Assembly: GCF_003382685.1 (NCBI RefSeq) | Contig: NZ_KZ859503.1 | Location: forward strand, 1 to 34,170 | Direction of reading: 5' to 3' | Origin: Halorussus litoreus | GTDB lineage: Archaea; Halobacteriota; Halobacteria; Halobacteriales; Haladaptataceae | DNA length: 34,170 nt | Part shown: piece after piece, positions 7,439 through 31,711 of the stretch | How the letters are laid out: every line of letters starts with the position of its first letter | How positions within the stretch are numbered: the first letter of the stretch is position 1 | The notes under the pieces: generated by a model | Databases searched by the model: none | The model's input: the letters and a program-made list of their open reading frames with translations, nothing else | What the model was told of the DNA's origin: nothing | Translations under genes and position numbers: made by a program

Positions 7439-7461
7439 GCATGATTGCATACCTCATTGGT

Positions 7462-9516
7462 ATGCCACACAGGCGCAACCGATCGGATGGTGCGAACGAA
7501 AGCCGACGAAAGTTTCTGAAGGCGAGCGGTACCGGTGCTGTCGCGCTCTCCCTGGCGGGATGTAGCGGTGGCGGCGATCAGGACCCAACCACCACGGAAG
7601 GCACTGGTGAGGAGACCGAAGCGGACACCACCACCGAGGAGGAAACCGTCGAGAAGCGAACCGAGGACTCCGACAGTATCCCCCGCGGCGGGACGTTGAC
7701 GTACGGGATGGCCCAGAACCCGGACACGTCCAACTACCTGACGTCAGGGAGTGTGTACTCGGCGGTCGCGCTGAACCTCATCTACGACTTCGGGGTCGAG
7801 ATCGACCCTGTCACCTACGAGATCCAACCGTGGGTGTTCACCGACTGGGAACTGCAGAACGCCGACGCCGACCAGCCGGAAATCGCGTTCAACGTTCGGG
7901 ACGACCTGACGTGGAACGACGGCGAGGACTTCACCATCGAAGACGTCATTTTCTCGCACGACTACATCATCGAGAACGAAGTCGGCGAGTGGTCTTCGGT
8001 CTGGAACAACATCGAGTCCGTCGAAGAGGACAGTGGCGACTGGGACTGCCGGATGACGCTGACCCAGCAGATCGGGACATGGGACTCCTCGGCGCTCGGC
8101 GCGTGTCCGATGCTTCCCCAGCACATCTGGTCGGAGGTCGACGACTTCCAGAGCTACGACCCGATGGCCGAACGCGAGAACGGTCCTGTCGGCACCGGTC
8201 CGGGCGTGCTCACCACGTTCCGTCCCGACACGTCGATGCAGATTCAGTTCCGCGACGCCGAGGAGTACCCGCTCACGGACCTGGACTGGGTCGACGAGCA
8301 CGACAACCTCGTCGCCGGTGGCCCGTTCCTCGATCAGGTCAACTTCCAGATCTACGGGGAGACCGCCGCGCTCACGCAGGCGTTCATGCGCGGAGAGGTC
8401 GACACCCATTACGGCTCGCTCGACACCGACAAGATCCCGGAGGCCCAGGACACCGAAGGACTCGGCCTCGTTAACGGGTACGACAGCGGGTTCTCCTACG
8501 CGGCATTCAACTGCCGGCGCGAACCGCTCGACGACGTCGCGCTCCGGCAGGCCATCGCGTTCGCGTGGGACGACTACTACTGGACCCAGCAGCTCCAGCA
8601 AGGGTACGTCTTCGACGGCGACTTCGCACAGTCGCCCGGCTATTCGGGCGTCCGGCCCGAGTCCGTCTTCGACGGCGAACTGCTCGAGGGCGCAGCGGCG
8701 GAGGCGTTCAAGTTCCGCGGTCAGGGTGACAGCGCCGACCCCGACGTCGAGTCGATCCGGTCGTTCCTCGAGAACGGCGAGGTCATCGACGGCTCGTCGG
8801 GCACGTTCGCCGGCCAGGACTACCCCGGTTCGCTGTCCGGCGTCTCGGCCAGCCAGTCCGAGTCGAAGTACAACTACACGTTCGACACCGCGCAGTCCAG
8901 TAATCTCGACGGCGTCTCGGACGTCGAGTTGTACGTCGACGGCGAACCCCTCTCCGAGTTCAAGGGCGGCCCGATCTCGATTCTGATGGACCCACCGGGC
9001 GAGAACCCCAAGCAGGGGCAGGCCTTCGAGCGGTGGGCCGAGAACCTCCGGAAGGTCGGCATCCCCATCAAGCTCGAGCCGACCGGCTTCAACACCATGA
9101 GCGACATGGTGTACTACAACGCCGATTACGACATGTACGAGATGGGCTGGGGCGGCACCAACCCGTTCGGGACGTCCATCCGGTCGTTCTTCCACTCGAA
9201 CTTCGCCAAGGAAGCGTTCGGCGAGAACGAGGGCGAGCAGTTCGCCTACAACTCCACCGGCTACGGCGTCGCCGGGGGCAGCAGCGACGAACTCATCATG
9301 GACGCGTACGGCGAGATGGACCCCGAGACCCGTAACGAGAAGTACGCGACGGCCATCGAGAAGGTCTACCTCGACATGCCGTACATGGTCCGGGACTACG
9401 ATAAGCAGCGCTGGCCGATGAACACCGCCGACTTCACTGGTGCAATCGCGAACATCGTCGACCCGGCCTACGCGAACTGGTTCTGGGAGGCGACCCACAT
9501 CCACCAGACGGAGTAA
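7462..9516 (+). CDS. ABC transporter substrate-binding lipoprotein, dipeptide/oligopeptide type (SBP_bac_5)
   Basis: This 684-residue extracellular binding protein for a Dpp/Opp-type importer is anchored by lipid. A twin-arginine motif, SRRKFLKASG, is followed by a short hydrophobic run and the lipobox LAGC, so it is a Tat-exported lipoprotein. A Thr/Glu-rich linker comes next, then the family-5 binding fold starting at RGGTLTYGMAQNP and including the usual FNVRDDLTWNDGEDFTIEDV, LDDVALRQAIAFAWD and the late PMNTADFTGAIAN. It is longer than most bacterial homologues (about 500-600), with an inserted acidic region around residues 400-480. The ligand is unknown: peptides are the default for the family, but sugars are also carried by haloarchaeal relatives. 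It heads the cluster with two permeases and two ATPases. Confidence 0.92.
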   Translation: MPHRRNRSDGANESRRKFLKASGTGAVALSLAGCSGGGDQDPTTTEGTGEETEADTTTEEETVEKRTEDSDSIPRGGTLTYGMAQNPDTSNYLTSGSVYSAVALNLIYDFGVEIDPVTYEIQPWVFTDWELQNADADQPEIAFNVRDDLTWNDGEDFTIEDVIFSHDYIIENEVGEWSSVWNNIESVEEDSGDWDCRMTLTQQIGTWDSSALGACPMLPQHIWSEVDDFQSYDPMAERENGPVGTGPGVLTTFRPDTSMQIQFRDAEEYPLTDLDWVDEHDNLVAGGPFLDQVNFQIYGETAALTQAFMRGEVDTHYGSLDTDKIPEAQDTEGLGLVNGYDSGFSYAAFNCRREPLDDVALRQAIAFAWDDYYWTQQLQQGYVFDGDFAQSPGYSGVRPESVFDGELLEGAAAEAFKFRGQGDSADPDVESIRSFLENGEVIDGSSGTFAGQDYPGSLSGVSASQSESKYNYTFDTAQSSNLDGVSDVELYVDGEPLSEFKGGPISILMDPPGENPKQGQAFERWAENLRKVGIPIKLEPTGFNTMSDMVYYNADYDMYEMGWGGTNPFGTSIRSFFHSNFAKEAFGENEGEQFAYNSTGYGVAGGSSDELIMDAYGEMDPETRNEKYATAIEKVYLDMPYMVRDYDKQRWPMNTADFTGAIANIVDPAYANWFWEATHIHQTE

Positions 9517-9529
9517 CGAACGCCAGACA

Positions 9530-9586
9530 CCCGTTTTTTCGGCTAGCACACCGAACTCGAAGGCGTGCCCTCGGACAGAAAACGGG
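9530..9586 (+). terminator. T6 tract and inverted repeat between binding protein and permease genes
   Basis: The sequence CCCGTTTT (9530-9537) followed by more T forms an eight-base inverted repeat with AAAACGGG (9579-9586), 41 bases apart, and TCGG/CCGA can pair inside it. A T-run just after the stop at 9516 fits an archaeal terminator or 3'-end processing site that would leave the binding protein mRNA more abundant than the downstream genes. Confidence 0.45.
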
Positions 9587-9600
9587 CAGGAATCAGCACA

Positions 9601-9608
9601 TTAATAAT
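9601..9608 (+). promoter_or_regulatory. Possible internal TATA box before the permease genes
   Basis: TTAATAAT lies in the 166-base gap between the binding-protein and permease genes. It could start a separate transcript with a leader of about 50 bases that contains the Shine-Dalgarno GAGGTGA at 9670-9676. Only position and composition support it. Confidence 0.35.
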
Positions 9609-9682
9609 GAAGCTATTCGATGACACACGTACCCGTAAATTGCTGATATGAACTACAGAACCAAAACGCGAGGTGATGCACG

Positions 9683-10669
9683 GTGACGCGAATCAGCGCG
9701 CGATACCTGGGTAAGCGCATCGTGGTGTCGTACATCACCCTGCTGGTGATCATGACGCTGCTGTTCGCGCTGCTGCGCAGCATGCCCGGGACGTTCATCT
9801 CCTCGATGATCACGCCGGAGATGCAACCCGAGCAGATCCAGCGCATGCGCGAGGTATGGGGCCTGAACGAACCGCTCTGGAAACAATACGTCAACTTCAT
9901 GGTCAACTACCAGACCGGAGAGTTCGGGATGTCGCCGACCAACCGGGTCCCCGTCTGGGACATCATGATCCGACGACTCCCTAGAACGCTCATCCTGTTC
10001 GGTGCGGCGTTCATCGTCGCGTACATCGTCGGTCCGCTGGTCGGGATGTATCTCGGCTGGCTACGCGGCAGCAGAAAGGACAAGTCCATCTTCGCGTCCA
10101 GCCTCGTGATGTACTCGATGCCCGCGTTCTGGCTCGCGTGGCTGTTCATCTGGCTGTTCAACTACGAGCTCGGCTGGTTGGAATCGACGTACATGTACCA
10201 CCAGTTCCCGCAGTTCGAGTGGACGGTCGTCTCGACGATAACGAACGTGTTACATCACATCACGCTCCCGCTGATCAGTCTCGCGTTCGTGAACTGGGTC
10301 GGGGTGATGTTGGTGATGCGACCGTCGATGAACAACGTGACCGAGGAGGACTACGTGTTCCTCGCGCAGGCGAAGGGACTCAGCGAGCGCACCGTGATGA
10401 TAAAACACGCCGCACGGAACGCGCTCATCCCCGTCGCGACGCAGGCCATCGTCGGCCTCGCGTTCCTCATCGACGGGAGCATTATCATCGAGCAGGTGTT
10501 TAGCTGGCCGGGCATCGGGCAGCTTATCGTCAACGCCGTGATATCGAAGGACTACCCAGTCGCACAGGCGTCGTTCTTCATCCTCGCGGTGCTGGTGGTC
10601 GTGATGCGCCTGCTGACCGACGTGGTGTACACGTACCTCGACCCACGCATCAAATTCGGGGAGGGATAA
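9683..10669 (+). CDS. ABC transporter permease, DppB/OppB type
   Basis: This 328-residue inner permease subunit of the Dpp/Opp importer begins with the family-typical short first helix (RYLGKRIVVSYITLLVIMTL), then a large extracellular loop including WGLNEPLWKQYVNFM, then five further helices. The cytoplasmic coupling (EAA) loop is AQAKGLSERTVMIKHAARNA. The C-terminus has RLLTDVVYTYLDPRI as in DppB. The start is the GTG at 9683, supported by a strong Shine-Dalgarno GAGGTGA six bases upstream. The next permease starts three bases after its stop, so the two are co-translated. It forms the membrane channel with the DppC-type protein. Confidence 0.93.
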   Translation: MTRISARYLGKRIVVSYITLLVIMTLLFALLRSMPGTFISSMITPEMQPEQIQRMREVWGLNEPLWKQYVNFMVNYQTGEFGMSPTNRVPVWDIMIRRLPRTLILFGAAFIVAYIVGPLVGMYLGWLRGSRKDKSIFASSLVMYSMPAFWLAWLFIWLFNYELGWLESTYMYHQFPQFEWTVVSTITNVLHHITLPLISLAFVNWVGVMLVMRPSMNNVTEEDYVFLAQAKGLSERTVMIKHAARNALIPVATQAIVGLAFLIDGSIIIEQVFSWPGIGQLIVNAVISKDYPVAQASFFILAVLVVVMRLLTDVVYTYLDPRIKFGEG

Positions 10670-10672
10670 TAC

Positions 10673-11629
10673 ATGTCGACCCAATCAGAGAGCGGCTTCG
10701 AACTCGACACGCTTCGTGAACGCTGGGGACCCCGCATCGAGCGGTTCAAGCGCGGCTGGGACCGGTACACGACCCACAAGATGGGCGTCGCCGGACTGGC
10801 CATCCTGGTGTTGTTCACGCTCTGGGCGCTGTTCCCGGACGTCTTCGCCCCCCACACTCCCGAGTGGAAGGCATACATCGGCTACGAGAACACCCGCATG
10901 TCGCCCGAGGAAGTGAACTCGCTGCCCCATCCACCGGCGTTCGGTGACCCCTTCTTCGCACCGCTCGGCACGAACGCGTCCGGTCAGGGCATCTACTCGA
11001 TGCTCGTGTACGCCGCAGGGAGCGCCCTGTACATCGGTCTCGCGGCAGGGCTACTGTCGAGTCTGGTCGGCGTGCCGCTCGGACTCATCAGCGGGTTCTA
11101 CGGTGACACGTGGATCGACGAGACCATCCAGCGCATCGTCGACGTGATGTACGGCCTGCCGTTCCTGCCGTTCCTCATCGTGCTGGTCGCGATCCGCGGG
11201 GTCAACACGACGAACATCATCCTCGGCATCGCCGTCACCTCTTGGCTGAACAACTGCATCCTCATCCGCGGAGAGACGCTGTCGCTGAAAGAGCGGGCGT
11301 ACATCGAATCCGCGCAGGTCGCAGGTGCCAGCGACACGCGCATCGTGTTCCGGCACATCCTACCGAACGTGTTGCCGCTGGCGTTCGTGTTTCTCGCACA
11401 GGACGCCGCGGCCGCCATCCTCGCGCAGGCGTCGCTGGCGTACCTCGGACTGGCGGACTTCACCGCCAACTCGTGGGGGCTGATGATCCAGAACGTTCAG
11501 GCACACAACTACATCTACAACGCGCCGTGGTGGCTCATCCCGCCGGGCCTGGCGATTACCGCCATCGCCGCGGCGTTCTACTTCATCGGCTTCTCGATGG
11601 AGGACGTGACCAACCCACAGAAGGAGTGA
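10673..11629 (+). CDS. ABC transporter permease, DppC/OppC type
   Basis: This 318-residue second permease subunit has an acidic cytoplasmic N-terminus (about 1-35), an OppC_N-type first helix (LAILVLFTLWALFPDVFAPH) and the permease core with the coupling loop YIESAQVAGASDTRIVFRHI. The extracellular loop after helix one is expanded (about residues 55-100). The ATG at 10673 follows GGGAGGG. Its C-terminus, FIGFSMEDVTNPQKE, is typical of the family (usually D..NP). It lies in an operon with the preceding permease and the two ATPases. Confidence 0.93.
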   Translation: MSTQSESGFELDTLRERWGPRIERFKRGWDRYTTHKMGVAGLAILVLFTLWALFPDVFAPHTPEWKAYIGYENTRMSPEEVNSLPHPPAFGDPFFAPLGTNASGQGIYSMLVYAAGSALYIGLAAGLLSSLVGVPLGLISGFYGDTWIDETIQRIVDVMYGLPFLPFLIVLVAIRGVNTTNIILGIAVTSWLNNCILIRGETLSLKERAYIESAQVAGASDTRIVFRHILPNVLPLAFVFLAQDAAAAILAQASLAYLGLADFTANSWGLMIQNVQAHNYIYNAPWWLIPPGLAITAIAAAFYFIGFSMEDVTNPQKE

Positions 11630-11635
11630 TCTACG

Positions 11636-12784
11636 ATGAGTCTACTCGAAGTAAACGATCTGTCGATACAATACGAAGTCGACGACGACGAGGTTCACGC
11701 CGTCGACGGCGTCGACTTCAGCATCGACCGCGGCGAAACGTACGGGTTCGTCGGCGAATCCGGTTGCGGGAAGACGACGCTCGGCAAGTCACTCGTCCAC
11801 CTGCTCGACAGCAACGGGTTCATCGCGGACGGCGAAATCTGGTTCGACGGCACGCTCCCCCAGTGGGAGAACGACCGGGGCGAGCCCCGACGAGACGTCA
11901 TCGAGAACGACCAGTACCCGGTGCGCGAGGACGGGAAGACCGATCTCGCACAGCTCGACAACGAGCAGATCCGCGACGTGCGGTGGCGTAACATCGCGCT
12001 CATCCCACAGAGTGCGATGAACGCGTTGAACCCGGTGTACAAGGTCGGAGACCAGATCGTCGAGGCCATCCGACGCCACGAGCCAAACACTAGCGTCGAG
12101 GAGGCCGACACCCGCGCCCGGGACCTGCTCGAGCGGGTCGGCATCGACCCCGACAGGGCCGACGACTACGCCCACCAGTTCTCGGGCGGGATGAAACAGC
12201 GCGCGGTCATCGCGATGGCGATGGCGTGCAACCCGGACATCCTCATCGCCGACGAGCCGACGACCGCACTCGACGTCATCATCCAGGACCGAATCCTCGA
12301 CGAACTCGACGAACTGCAGGAGGAGTTCAACGTCTCCATTCTCGTCATCAGCCACGACATTAGCGTCATGGCCGAGATTTGCGACCAGCTGGCGGTGATG
12401 TACGGCGGGAAGATCATGGAGAGCGGCCCGAAGGCCGAGGTGTTCCAGGAGTCGGCCAACCCCTACACTCTCGGGCTCAAGAACTCCTTCCCGACGGTCA
12501 AGCAGGAACAGTCCGAACTCGTCTCCATCCCCGGGTCACCACCCACGCTGCTCGATCCCGACCCAGGATGTCGATTCGTCGACCGCTGCCCGTTCGCCGT
12601 CGACGAGTGCGAGTCCTCCCACCCGCCGATGTACGACGTCGCCGACGCGGAAGGCGGCCGACGGGTCGAGGGCGACGACGAAAAATCCCACCGGTCGGCG
12701 TGTTACCGGGTGGACGACCTCGAAACGATGCGGACCGAAGCAAGCAAGGAGGAAACATGGCAAGCGATCACGCAGAACCACTAG
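11636..12784 (+). CDS. ABC transporter ATP-binding protein, DppD type
   Basis: This 382-residue ATPase powers the importer from the cytoplasmic side. Visible motifs are Walker [10 protein letters not shown] (about 39-47), Q-loop [11 protein letters not shown], signature FSGGMKQR, Walker [13 protein letters not shown] and H-loop ISHD. A roughly 45-residue hydrophilic insertion lies between Walker A and the Q-loop. The C-terminal oligopeptide-transporter domain has cysteines in [14 protein letters not shown] plus a later SACYR, the CX5CX6C...C pattern that in DppD-type proteins can hold an iron-sulfur cluster. The start ATG is preceded by GGAGTGATC, a good match to the 16S anti-Shine-Dalgarno. 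It overlaps the next gene by 28 bases. Confidence 0.93.
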
Positions 12785-14115
12785 TCGAGGTAAAGGGCGT
12801 CTCGAAGCTGTTCGATCTGACGCAGGGCGTCACGGATCGACTGCTCGGTCGCGAGGCGAATCCGGTCCGGGCGGTCGACGACGTCAGTTTCACCATCAAC
12901 GAGGGCGACATCATGGGTATCGCCGGCGAGTCCGGCTGCGGGAAGACGACCCTCGGCAAGCTGCTCGTCCGGCTGTACGAGCCGACCCACGGCACCATCG
13001 AGTTCGACGGCATGGACATCGGCGCCCTCACGAACGAACGGGAACGGGAGTTCCGAAAGCGGGTCCAGATGATATTCCAGGACCCGTTCGAGAGCCTCAA
13101 TCCCCGAATGACGGTGTTCCAGTCGGTGATGGAGCCGCTGAAGATCAACGACATCGGCGACTCGTATCACGACCGTCGCGACCGGGTCAAGGAGGTGCTC
13201 GAGGACGTCGGCCTCGCACCAGCGGACGCGTACCTCGACGAGTTCCCCAAGGAGCTGTCGGGCGGGGAGCGCCAGCGCGTCGCCATCGCGCGGGCGCTCG
13301 TCGTCAATCCGGACTTCATCGTCTGCGACGAGCCGGTGTCGATGCTCGACGTGTCCATCCGCGCGGGCGTGCTCAACCTGATGCAGGACCTGCAGGACGA
13401 GTACGGGCTCACGTACGTGTTCATCAGCCACGACCTCTCGCTCATCCGGTACATGTGCGACCGGACCGCAATCATGTATCTCGGCGACATCGTCGAACAG
13501 GGGCCGACCGACGACGTGGTGATGGACCCGAAACACCCCTACACGGAGGCGCTGTTCGACGCGGTGCCCGAGATCGACCCGGAGGCCGAGCGCCACCGCG
13601 CGAACGTCACCGGCGAGGTCCCCGACCCACGGAACCCGCCGAGCGGCTGTCGGTTCCACCCGCGCTGTTCGAACGTCATCCCGCCCGAGAACTGGACGGG
13701 GAGTCAGGACGCGTTCCGTCGCACGATCCAGTTCAAGCGGCGCGTGCTGACCGACGACCTCGACCCGGAGGAGGCACTCGAGAACGCCGGTCGCGATTCG
13801 GTCGACGCGATACTCGAACGCGGACTCGCGCTCGACCTGCCCGAGGAACACTCGCTGGCCGGCGAAGACTCACACGCCGTCGACCCGTCCGCGATCGACC
13901 TGCCGAGCGACGCCGAGCGAACGCTCCGCCGAGCCGCCGAACAGATGCTCGACGACGACCCCGATGCTGCGGCGGCCGAACTCGACGGCGAGTTCGTCTC
14001 CATCTGCGAGCGCGAACATCCCGAGATGCGCGAGACCGGAACCCGGGTTACGGCCTGTCACCTCTACGAGACCGAGGAGCGCGACGCGGTCGCCGCGCCC
14101 GGCAGTTCGGACTAA
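12757..14115 (+). CDS. ABC transporter ATP-binding protein, DppF type, with long insertion in the cysteine motif
   Basis: This 452-residue second ATPase has Walker [11 protein letters not shown]-loop FQDPFESLNPRM, signature ELSGGERQR, Walker B FIVCDEPVSMLD and H-loop ISHD. The start is the ATG at 12757, preceded by AAGGAGGA; it lies inside the end of the previous gene, so translation is coupled. Longer open frames upstream are shadow. DppF proteins are usually about 320-340 residues; the excess is a hydrophilic block of 112 residues between the second cysteine (GCRFHPRC) and the third (SICEREHP), with the fourth in TACHLYE. All four cysteines are kept. It ends the transporter operon. Confidence 0.92.
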   Translation: MASDHAEPLVEVKGVSKLFDLTQGVTDRLLGREANPVRAVDDVSFTINEGDIMGIAGESGCGKTTLGKLLVRLYEPTHGTIEFDGMDIGALTNEREREFRKRVQMIFQDPFESLNPRMTVFQSVMEPLKINDIGDSYHDRRDRVKEVLEDVGLAPADAYLDEFPKELSGGERQRVAIARALVVNPDFIVCDEPVSMLDVSIRAGVLNLMQDLQDEYGLTYVFISHDLSLIRYMCDRTAIMYLGDIVEQGPTDDVVMDPKHPYTEALFDAVPEIDPEAERHRANVTGEVPDPRNPPSGCRFHPRCSNVIPPENWTGSQDAFRRTIQFKRRVLTDDLDPEEALENAGRDSVDAILERGLALDLPEEHSLAGEDSHAVDPSAIDLPSDAERTLRRAAEQMLDDDPDAAAAELDGEFVSICEREHPEMRETGTRVTACHLYETEERDAVAAPGSSD

Positions 14116-26839: not shown

Positions 26840-28678
26840 TCAGGCGCTCGTGACGTTCACGTGGCTCACGCTGACGTGGAGATACGTCAGTTGCGGGAAG
26901 TCCTCGCCCACGTCGGCCTGCGGGTCGACCGAGCGCAGGGCCTGATCGAAGTGGATCGAGCCGCCCGACTGGAGGAGCGCGGTTCCGCCGCCCACGATCC
27001 CGCCGTACAGTTCCGACTGCGTTCGGACCGTGATCGACCCCGAGGCCGAATCGGTACCGGGGGCGTACACCAGCCCGACGAAGGTCGCGTCCTCGTCGAG
27101 CGCGAAGTCCAACCCCGGTCCGGCGTACACCCGCAGCGACGGCGACCGGTGATCGATCGTGTCGCCGACGCTCCCACCGGTCACGCGGAACGTCGATGCC
27201 GACGTGTAGATTCGGACCTCGCCGCGGTCGGGGTGGGTCACCTCGACGTTCACGTCGGTCCAGACAACGTCGTCGTCGACAGCGAGAACCACGTCACCTT
27301 CGGACGTGTCGAACGCTAATGTCTGGGAACTATCCAGCGTCGCGTCCGAGAGGTAGTACGCAGACCCCGCGTCCGGGGCCGAGGGGAGCGTGAGCGTCGA
27401 CTCCGAGTCGTTGAACGCTTCCCCGTCGATGGCCGACACCTCGTCGTTGCGGTTGTTCGACGGGTCGGCGTACGTCTCGATCCGCCCGTCGACCACGTCG
27501 CCGATGGGGTTCAGATCCGGTGCAGTCCCGTTGTTTGCGGTCCAACCGTCGACCGCGCCGCAGTCGCCGCCTCCGCCCCCTCCGCCGGGACCGCCACCTG
27601 GACCGCCACCACCGCAGTCGAGCGTCCCGCCGTAGGAGACGTTACCGTGGACGGCGACGCCGCCGCCCACGTCGACGGTGCCGCCGCCGGTCCGGAGGTC
27701 GCCGAAGATTTCGGCCCCGCCGGTGAGTTCCACGCCGCCCTTCGTGACGATGGTGCCGTTTTCGGTCCGGTCGGCCTCGGAGTACGGACCGTCCGAGGAG
27801 TTGTAGCTGTCCGTGAACGACGACCCGCCCGCGCCCTTGATCGTCATCCGGTCGGGCGTGGTGCCGGCCAGCGCGTTGGTGACGTTCCGCGTATTGCCGG
27901 GCACGACGAGCGTGATGGTCACGCGCTCGCGGTCGTCGTCGTAGGAGACGTTGCCGCCGGTCCGGTCCTCGAAGAAACGGCCCCACGCCTCGTAGTAGTC
28001 GCTGTGGACCGTGACGTTGACTTCGCCGTCCTCCAGCGGGTTCCGGAGTTCGGCGTCGCCCGGCCGCGGGAACGTCGAGTTGGTCGGCGCGTCGCGAGTC
28101 ATCCGGACGGTACCGTCGAGCGTTCCGCTCCCGTTCACGCTCACGAGCGGGAGCGTCAGCGTGGTTCCGCGGTAGTGGAACTCCGGCGGCGACACCATCG
28201 TCGCGCCGCCCCCGGTTCGCTTCCAGACGCCGCCGCCCTGATACGCGACGCGGGTGTCGCCGTTGCTGTAGACGACGGCCCCGAGCGTGTCGTTCATCAC
28301 CACGTGCTCGGTGGTCCCATCGGTCCGGTTGACCACCCTGACGCGCATCCACCCGCGGTCCTCGTGGACCCGCGTGGTGCCGTCGCTCCCGAGCGACATC
28401 GTCTGGGCCGAGGACGTGCCGAGGCCGACCAGACTCGCCTTCGAGTCGAACTGGGTCATCGCGTGCTCCGCGCTGCCGACTTCCGAGGCCCGCTGGGAGT
28501 CCGACAGCGCGGACGAGCCGAAGGCGACGACCAGCCCCGTCCCCGTGACGGTGATAGCCAGCAGTAGCGCGACGCTCAGCACCTCCGTCTGGCCGCGCAA
28601 GCCTTCCCAGCGGGACTCGTCGCCGGTTGGCGTGTCTCGCCGCCCAACCCCGTCGCTGGTTCCCCGCCGACCGGTCAT
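26840..28678 (-). CDS. Large pilin-like surface protein with bactofilin-like repeats and poly-glycine
   Basis: This 612-residue protein has a leader of about 28 residues, then LRGQTEVLSVALLLAITVTG, a class III signal with the cut after RG. Up to about residue 270 it resembles the last pilin-like protein of the opposing operon (VYSNGDTRVAYQGGGVW, AWGRFFEDRTGG). A middle part (about 310-350) has short Gly/Val turns, VELTGGAEIFGDLRTGGG, like polymer-forming bactofilin beta-helices. Then comes a poly-Gly/Pro hinge flanked by cysteines, and a beta-rich C-terminal region with LYGGIVGGGTALLQSGGSIH. It carries many N-glycosylation sequons. It is leaderless from its own promoter and monocistronic. It may be an adhesin or tip protein; this is inferred from the signal and neighbours only. 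Confidence 0.85.
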   Translation of the reverse strand: MTGRRGTSDGVGRRDTPTGDESRWEGLRGQTEVLSVALLLAITVTGTGLVVAFGSSALSDSQRASEVGSAEHAMTQFDSKASLVGLGTSSAQTMSLGSDGTTRVHEDRGWMRVRVVNRTDGTTEHVVMNDTLGAVVYSNGDTRVAYQGGGVWKRTGGGATMVSPPEFHYRGTTLTLPLVSVNGSGTLDGTVRMTRDAPTNSTFPRPGDAELRNPLEDGEVNVTVHSDYYEAWGRFFEDRTGGNVSYDDDRERVTITLVVPGNTRNVTNALAGTTPDRMTIKGAGGSSFTDSYNSSDGPYSEADRTENGTIVTKGGVELTGGAEIFGDLRTGGGTVDVGGGVAVHGNVSYGGTLDCGGGGPGGGPGGGGGGGDCGAVDGWTANNGTAPDLNPIGDVVDGRIETYADPSNNRNDEVSAIDGEAFNDSESTLTLPSAPDAGSAYYLSDATLDSSQTLAFDTSEGDVVLAVDDDVVWTDVNVEVTHPDRGEVRIYTSASTFRVTGGSVGDTIDHRSPSLRVYAGPGLDFALDEDATFVGLVYAPGTDSASGSITVRTQSELYGGIVGGGTALLQSGGSIHFDQALRSVDPQADVGEDFPQLTYLHVSVSHVNVTSA

Positions 28679-29993: not shown

Positions 29994-30731
29994 TCAGCCG
30001 GAGCGCTCGACGACCACCCCCTCGTCGCGAGCTTTTCGGGAGACGCCGATAGTGTCGTCGTGGCCTGCGCTGTACGAGTCGATGACGAGGTCGTCGAACC
30101 CACCGATCACCCCGATGTCGGACACCAGGTCGCCGATCCAATGGGTCAGGCCTTCCTGGCGCCGAGTCAGGAACGGGGTCGTCGAGGTCACGATCTCCTT
30201 GATCGTCGCCTCGTCGTCTCTGGCCTGCGGATCGACCTCGAAGCTCTTGACGCCGTCCTCGTAGTGGTTGTTGATCAGGAGACCACTTCCGTATTCGCGC
30301 GGTCGGATCCGGATCGCCCCGTCCCCGTATTCGACGGGTTCCGAGACGCTACGTCGGGGCTCCGACCCGCGTTCGATCGTCTCGGCCGTTCGGAGCGCTT
30401 CGGCGAGAACCGGATTGTGCAGCCCTGCGGGGTGGCCGACGACGGTGCTCGGGTCCGACCCGGTAGAGTACGCGAAGCGATGCTCCGGACGGGCGAAGTC
30501 CCACTCCGTCCGGACGCCCGTGACCTCCGCGGCGGTGATCCCCGACAGGCCGAGGACCGAGAGGACGTGCTCCGCGATGAAGGTCCGCCGATCGCCGTCC
30601 CGCAGGTCGATCCGGAACACGGGAACCGCGTTGTCGAGTTCCACCGGGACGCCGTTGATCGTTATTCCCTCCGACTCGGCGGGTTCGACGCGAACTTCTG
30701 TCCCCTCGACGGGGTTTGCGACGGTTCTCAT
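29994..30731 (-). CDS. LpxC-like (UDP-3-O-acyl-GlcNAc deacetylase fold) protein
   Basis: This 245-residue soluble protein shows the LpxC motifs in order. VRVEPAESEGITI (about 13-25) fits the first-domain strand. AEHVLSVLGLSG has E54-H55, matching the catalytic Glu and first zinc His. DGAIRIRPREYGSGLLIN, then the TSTTPF patch, fits the substrate lobe. HWIGDLVSDIG gives H197 and D201 with HxxxDxxxD spacing, the other two zinc ligands. SAGH has H224, the late catalytic His. The usual N-terminal GxGLHTG motif is missing, the lysine after the second His is Trp, and the protein is about 50 residues shorter than bacterial LpxC. Archaea have no lipid A, so the substrate must differ. It overlaps the stop of the Tat-secreted gene upstream (ATGA). 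The assignment is by eye only. Confidence 0.65.
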   Translation of the reverse strand: MRTVANPVEGTEVRVEPAESEGITINGVPVELDNAVPVFRIDLRDGDRRTFIAEHVLSVLGLSGITAAEVTGVRTEWDFARPEHRFAYSTGSDPSTVVGHPAGLHNPVLAEALRTAETIERGSEPRRSVSEPVEYGDGAIRIRPREYGSGLLINNHYEDGVKSFEVDPQARDDEATIKEIVTSTTPFLTRRQEGLTHWIGDLVSDIGVIGGFDDLVIDSYSAGHDDTIGVSRKARDEGVVVERSG

Positions 30732-31711
30732 TCGATCTCACCCAGATTGGTGACGCTCTCGGAGAGCACGTCCACGCAGGACGCGTACTCCCCGTTCGAG
30801 AACTCGGTCGCTCCGGCACCCCCGAGTCCGAACGCGATCTTCTCCTGCGGAAGCGAGCCGAAACGCGTCGGAGTCGGTTGCCACTCGTACGTTGCGACGC
30901 CGAGGACCGATCGGTGGGCCCGCTCGACCGCGTCTCTGACCTCAGTCGACGGGTTGGCGCGCGCTACGTCGACGACCGACTCGTACGAAACGTCGCGCAC
31001 GCAGTCGAGCGACGCGAACCGATCCTCGACGCTCTCGGCCGTGGTCGCGGGCGTCGTCGAGACGTCGAACGTCACTGTCAGCGTTTCAGCGGCCGTTTCG
31101 ACGTCCGACAGCGTGAAGCTCATCATCCCGGTCGTGAACACCGCACGGTCGACCGGGTAATACGGATGGGACAGATCGGAAGCCGCACGGACTTCCGTGA
31201 GGCAGTCCGAGAACTCGCCGTCGGATTCGCCGGCGAACTCGCGGTAGTCCATCGTCACCTGTACCCGTCCCGTCCCCGCCTGAACAGTCGATAGCTGACC
31301 CGAAAGCGGTTCGAGCACGAACCACGGACCGGCCGCGTCGGTGTCGGGCCCGGGATAATGGAGTCGAACGTCGGCGTCCACGACGGCCACCGCGGCCGCC
31401 AAACGCCCGAGTTGGCCCGCGTGCTCGCCCGCGTACCCCTCGTCGGTTCGTCGAACGTCGGGGTCGTCGTCCATCTCCGGAAGGACGACGTTGACGGCCG
31501 GCTCCGTAATATCTGCCGAACTGGTACGCTCTCCTGCCGCTTGCGCGTCTTTCAGCACCTTCTGTGGTGGCGGTAGTACTCGCGAACTCTGGTTCTGCCG
31601 CTCGACGGCTTCCGTCTCGGTCCGTCCCTTCGCAGCCACTCCACTCCCCATCACCGACGCCGTCCCGCCCCCGACTAGCTTCAGTGCGAATCGGCGCGTC
31701 GTTCGTAACAT
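30728..31711 (-). CDS. Tat-signal protein, weakly M20-peptidase-like, partner of the LpxC-like gene
   Basis: This 327-residue protein begins RTTRRFALKLVGGGTASVMG, a twin-arginine signal, with no lipobox. Parts follow the order of an M20 metallopeptidase: GQLGRLAAAVAVVDADVRLH, then WFVLEPLSGQLSTVQAGTG, a dimerisation-like block FTLSDVETAAETLTVTFDVS with TTPA, and near the end KIAFGLGGAGATEFSNGEYA. The expected metal ligands (HxD, DxKG, EE, final His) are not visible, so it may be a non-catalytic relative. It is coupled by a four-base overlap to the LpxC-like gene, whose product has no signal peptide. A TATA-like AAATATTT lies about 50 bases before the start. The M20 assignment is weak; it may be an unrelated secreted protein. 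Confidence 0.6.
   Translation of the reverse strand: MLRTTRRFALKLVGGGTASVMGSGVAAKGRTETEAVERQNQSSRVLPPPQKVLKDAQAAGERTSSADITEPAVNVVLPEMDDDPDVRRTDEGYAGEHAGQLGRLAAAVAVVDADVRLHYPGPDTDAAGPWFVLEPLSGQLSTVQAGTGRVQVTMDYREFAGESDGEFSDCLTEVRAASDLSHPYYPVDRAVFTTGMMSFTLSDVETAAETLTVTFDVSTTPATTAESVEDRFASLDCVRDVSYESVVDVARANPSTEVRDAVERAHRSVLGVATYEWQPTPTRFGSLPQEKIAFGLGGAGATEFSNGEYASCVDVLSESVTNLGEIE

Follow-up and report, generated by a model that had tools for sequence, protein, structure and literature searches.

Work on LpxC has treated it as an enzyme with a single function, in the bacterial outer membrane, and as a target for antibiotics. Archaea are not known to make lipid A, and LpxC itself was not found above cut-off in the genome of Halorussus litoreus or in 393 genomes of its phylum; the sole match to the LpxC family model (PF03331) in the phylum, L084, looks like a frame overlapping another gene. 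No relative of LpxC was described from haloarchaea in the literature searched, which lay mostly outside subscription journals. The parts of the bacterial enzyme that contact its substrate have been mapped with E. coli LpxC; Lys239 and Lys262 belong to the UDP pocket, and the segment between T191 and H238 holds the acyl-tunnel residues Met195, Ile198, Phe212 and Val217 (PMC10254716).

A probable LpxC-fold protein in Halorussus litoreus

The gene named here c5 was located at positions 29994-30731 on the minus strand of the window, the stretch of 34,170 nucleotides of H. litoreus DNA that was analysed as a whole. Its open reading frame, with an ATG start, a TGA stop and a GC3 of 0.83, encodes a protein of 245 amino acids that is predicted, from homologue conservation, fold search and profile-profile alignment, to have the LpxC fold and to be a zinc amidohydrolase. 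The initial annotation of this DNA had recognized the catalytic set of LpxC in E54-H55, H197-x3-D201-x3-D205 and H224. These residues were found at the places claimed, and a survey of haloarchaea, which that annotation had proposed, provided ten homologues (44-55% identical to the window protein where measured), an upstream partner gene (c6) and a catabolic cluster. The whole set is invariant in the 11 proteins now available, more than is expected by chance. In the E. coli numbering of LpxC, E54-H55 (30567-30572; this and the following on the minus strand) are the equivalents of the catalytic E78 and the zinc ligand H79, H197 (30141-30143) and D201 (30129-30131) those of the zinc ligands H238 and D242, D205 (30117-30119) that of D246, and H224 (30060-30062) that of the catalytic H265. 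To these can be added T185 (30177-30179), also invariant in all 11 proteins, which was matched with LpxC T191 by motif order (the TT of TTP against ARTFG).

A search with the single sequence through 392 genomes of the order identified c5 in 8 genomes belonging to 5 of 95 genera. The genome of H. litoreus has two copies, one in the window and one on contig C20, which are 55% identical, and further searches brought in one additional genome as well as one locus from a metagenome-assembled genome (L001, also listed as L029). No c5 was found in the viral contigs, phages or plasmids searched. Within what was searched, the family thus looks confined to haloarchaea and patchy. Matches in Myxococcus and other bacteria (L002-L009) were rejected, those inspected being M3-type peptidases that had been picked up because they contain the c5 peptide GVRTEWDF (30495-30518 of the window, minus strand); the sharing of this peptide with the M3-type peptidases of Myxococcus and relatives is taken as coincidence. 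Weak class-level matches (E 1e-4 to 1e-2) were also set aside, as those inspected look like frames overlapping MoeA, HisD or other genes.

Sequence search alone lent no significance to a link between c5 and LpxC (E about 1). Searches of Pfam, NCBIfam and PDB sequences with c5 returned nothing even at E 10, and with PF03331 in particular c5 lies below the cut-off and gives no match at E 10. A template-free structure model was built from the ten haloarchaeal sequences, with LpxC left out of the alignment. Confidence in this model was low (mean pLDDT 54, pTM 0.55), residues 31-122, which include E54-H55, falling below pLDDT 50. Nevertheless, the 50 best PDB matches returned by Foldseek were all LpxC (best E 4.5e-4, probability 1.00), at TM values of 0.3-0.44 for a model in which residues 31-122 are below pLDDT 50. 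Given the warning of the tool that low-confidence models can yield meaningless fold matches, reliance was placed on a second test, profile-profile alignment with 34 LpxC sequences. These include LpxC of E. coli and of Aquifex, the latter sequence being identical to that of PDB 1xxe. The alignment was co-linear over residues 1-245 of c5 and paired E54-H55, H197, D201, D205 and H224 with E78-H79, H238, D242, D246 and H265, respectively. Its score of 27.9 (P 0.0034) exceeded those of 600/600 shuffles, the margin being thin for the 300 block-shuffled profiles (maximum 27.8) and the maximum for the 300 column-shuffled profiles being 26.1; the reversed profile reached 15.2, and the c5 profile gave a P of 0.83 with an M20 profile.

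This full-length alignment supports the assignment to c5 of both putative domains of LpxC. Independent support is weaker for the first domain than for the second since, with the E54-H55 region below pLDDT 50 in the model, the evidence for the first is the profile alignment. Poor modelling of this domain, together with an E value of about 1 and the silence of Pfam and NCBIfam, would fit a reading in which c5 has only the ribosomal-S5-like fold class in common with LpxC, its motif being convergent or coincidental. Such a reading is very improbable, however, in view of a co-linear alignment over the full length that scores above all shuffles, and of LpxC being the only protein among the 50 best fold matches. 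On these two lines of evidence, the fold and catalytic set that the initial annotation had attributed to c5 are supported; c5 and LpxC would share a homologous fold, and c5 would represent, as had been suggested, a new LpxC-type subfamily in a haloarchaeon that has no recognizable LpxC.

Departures from LpxC

Besides the predicted fold, c5 has in common with LpxC the catalytic Glu, two zinc His, the zinc Asp, the second Asp, the late His and the Thr, all in the same order. It differs in its length (245 amino acids compared to about 300 for LpxC), in the absence of GxGLHTG and of Lys239, Lys262 and Phe192, in its escape from the Pfam model, and in the catabolic neighbours of its family. The Thr and the zinc His are separated by 12-13 residues in the c5 family compared to 47 in LpxC (T191-H238), and the acyl-tunnel segment (Met195 to Val217) is missing. 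Neither Lys239 nor Lys262 has a lysine equivalent, Trp, Ser or Ala following the zinc His and no Lys occurring just before the late His. A Trp in place of the lysine after the second zinc His had been noted at the outset; the loss of the lysine extends to all 11 proteins, but the Trp is peculiar to the window copy, the other ten having Ser or Ala. The c5 family has invariant residues of its own, among them W-x-F-x-RPEHR and a later His. The loss of the tunnel segment and of the UDP lysines coupled with the gain of these residues argues for the same chemistry as that of LpxC acting on a different and probably smaller substrate. With the LpxC mechanism, two His and an Asp would bind the zinc, the Glu would serve as general base, and the His would stabilize or protonate the intermediate. 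The substrate would then be a small, soluble, imported amide and not a precursor of lipid A.

The partner protein c6

Directly upstream of c5 is c6 (30728-31711, minus strand), which encodes 327 amino acids from the ATG at 31711, its true start being uncertain. The stop codon of c6 and the start codon of c5 share four bases as an ATGA overlap (30728-30731, minus strand; junction sequence GAATGAGAA), and by their coordinates the two genes overlap by 4 bases at the other loci that have both, which suggests that the two may be translationally coupled. At 10/10 loci with the upstream side covered, c6 lies directly upstream of c5, and a fragment of it was found at the contig edge in genome G165; none was found on the plasmids searched. 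In the window, c6 has an N-terminal extension (31592-31711, minus strand) in which a twin arginine precedes a hydrophobic stretch (MLRTTRRFALKLVGGGTASVMGSG). Other c6 proteins are without this extension, which could be a Tat-like signal or the product of a wrong start.

The c6 proteins, about 280-330 amino acids across the family, are unrecognized by Pfam. A model of the homologue at locus L021 (pLDDT 87, pTM 0.80) was compared with the PDB by Foldseek, and the 50 best matches were all members of the M20 family (including DapE, LysK and ArgE; best E 4e-11). Sequence profiles alone gave only a hint of this relation, since 10 and 31 of 300 shuffles outscored c6 against a mixed M20 profile, and the assignment to M20 was hence settled by the fold search alone. 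Although the predicted fold is that of the M20 deacylases DapE, ArgE and LysK (PF01546), c6 differs from them in its size, in being missed by the Pfam model and in lacking the metal-ligand pattern (H, D, E, E, H); before residue 136, no H, D, E or C is conserved in at least 8 of 10 sequences. Unlike c6, the M20 protein of the catabolic cluster (M20a) retains GH[FL]D, SDMK, EE and AH. Thus, c6 is an M20-fold pseudoenzyme, with the fold of the M20 deacylases but without their metal ligands. A derivation of c6 from M20b, the second M20 protein of the sister clusters described below, was considered and is not claimed; the strongest local match spans 35 columns (P 0.029) and is not co-linear.

Catabolic clusters and the copy in the window

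At 8 of the 10 loci with the upstream side covered (L001, L021, L022, L023, L025, L026, L027 and L087), the c6-c5 pair ends a catabolic cluster. The intact M20a, which is of the ArgE/DapE type, lies just upstream of the pair at 8/8 of these, SDR is present at 7/8 and ALDH at most. Many also encode an ABC transporter of the oligopeptide type (permeases, ATPases and a substrate-binding protein of family 5), a class III aminotransferase, an MMSDH-type dehydrogenase and an Lrp/AsnC regulator. The cluster M20 is present in 16/253 sampled genomes, and the five genomes with c6 in a sample of 243 are all among these 16, a co-occurrence with a probability of about 5e-7 under an assumption of independence that these genomes do not satisfy.

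The initial annotation had proposed a sugar nucleotide, glycolipid or surface glycan as the substrate of c5, and an N-deacetylase of this kind would suit both the kinship with LpxC and the gene next to c5 at L021 (5979-7730, minus strand), which is Agl23-like (TIGR03663) and thereby linked to archaeal N-glycosylation. This gene adjoins the cluster at that one locus, however, and there is no glycosylation gene among the recurrent neighbours of c5. With the UDP lysines and acyl-tunnel segment lost, and with most family members situated in a catabolic amidohydrolase cluster with its transporter and deacylases, the proposal is not supported and is considered unlikely; the c6-c5 pair probably serves to degrade a small compound taken up by the cell and not to build the cell surface.

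The same M20 is also found in clusters without c5-c6 (L100-L103, L121-L125 and L127), a recurrent haloarchaeal catabolic cluster of which no description was found. These sister clusters, such as that of Natronorubrum aibiense (NZ_CP045489), resemble those of c5 in their M20 deacylase, which is orthologous, and at most loci also in SDR, ALDH, class III aminotransferase, MMSDH or Lrp, the first four of which they often carry; in some there are C45, M20C-type or other amidohydrolases as well. They differ in having a second intact M20 (M20b) and an SSS sodium:solute symporter where the c5 clusters have c6-c5 and the ABC transporter. M20b and the symporter were found in 10/10 clusters without the pair and in 0/8 with it, within the covered stretches, which are of limited length and come from related genomes. 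In H. litoreus, there is no close M20b among six M20 matches (best 33% identity). Most simply, M20b and the symporter would have been exchanged in the c5 clusters for c6-c5 and the ABC transporter. The route encoded by the cluster would comprise uptake, deacylation, oxidation of an alcohol and an aldehyde, transamination, and the action of a CoA-acylating semialdehyde dehydrogenase. SDR, ALDH, the aminotransferase and MMSDH would fit pantothenate or a beta-alanine amide as substrate, which is not claimed here; the symporter of the sister clusters matches PutP and PanF only far below the cut-off.

Taken with the conservation of its catalytic residues, it is reasonably likely that c5 is a divergent metalloenzyme of the LpxC superfamily which, with c6, hydrolyses a small soluble amide and replaces the second M20 deacylase of this haloarchaeal cluster. 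Having lost its own metal centre, c6 would probably act as a structural or substrate-binding subunit. More tentatively, c5 and c6 may form a complex that is one two-subunit amidase, the dead M20 providing the substrate site or scaffold and the LpxC-fold subunit the zinc centre. That c5 is instead a regulatory or assembly subunit with the LpxC fold and not the hydrolase of this step would accord with its pairing with a dead enzyme and with the adjoining intact M20. This is improbable, however, as the catalytic residues of LpxC are all invariant whereas those that contact the substrate are not kept, and the pair also occurs without an adjoining intact M20, in the window and at L024.

Neither of these last two pairs belongs to a cluster, and what the cluster suggests may therefore not hold for them. 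In H. litoreus, two paralogous pairs coexist, the one in the window, which stands alone, and a second inside a cluster (L022, 8241-9997, contig C20). The window c5 is the most divergent member of the family (end branch 1.07 compared to a median of 0.19), with a dN of 0.40 and a dS of 0.86 by a simple method relative to the C20 copy. Its reading frame is uninterrupted, resembles coding sequence and is under some constraint, and the protein may have a shifted specificity. Elsewhere in the window, about 16 kb from the pair, is an oligopeptide-type ABC transporter set (7441-14115, plus strand; a binding protein, two permeases and two ATPases) with general similarity to the cluster transporters, and a gene at 26840-28678 (minus strand) encodes a protein of 612 amino acids with DUF7289 and DUF7305 domains.

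If the preferred reading of c5 as an amide-hydrolysing metalloenzyme holds, this branch has kept the catalytic machinery of LpxC, dropped the parts that bind lipid and UDP, and taken a role in archaeal catabolism, which would show the fold turned to other amides. With an M20 pseudoenzyme as its partner, it would also offer an unusual example of a catalytic centre that has taken the place of another and, if the two proteins do constitute a single amidase, catalysis would have moved between unrelated hydrolase folds within the same pathway.
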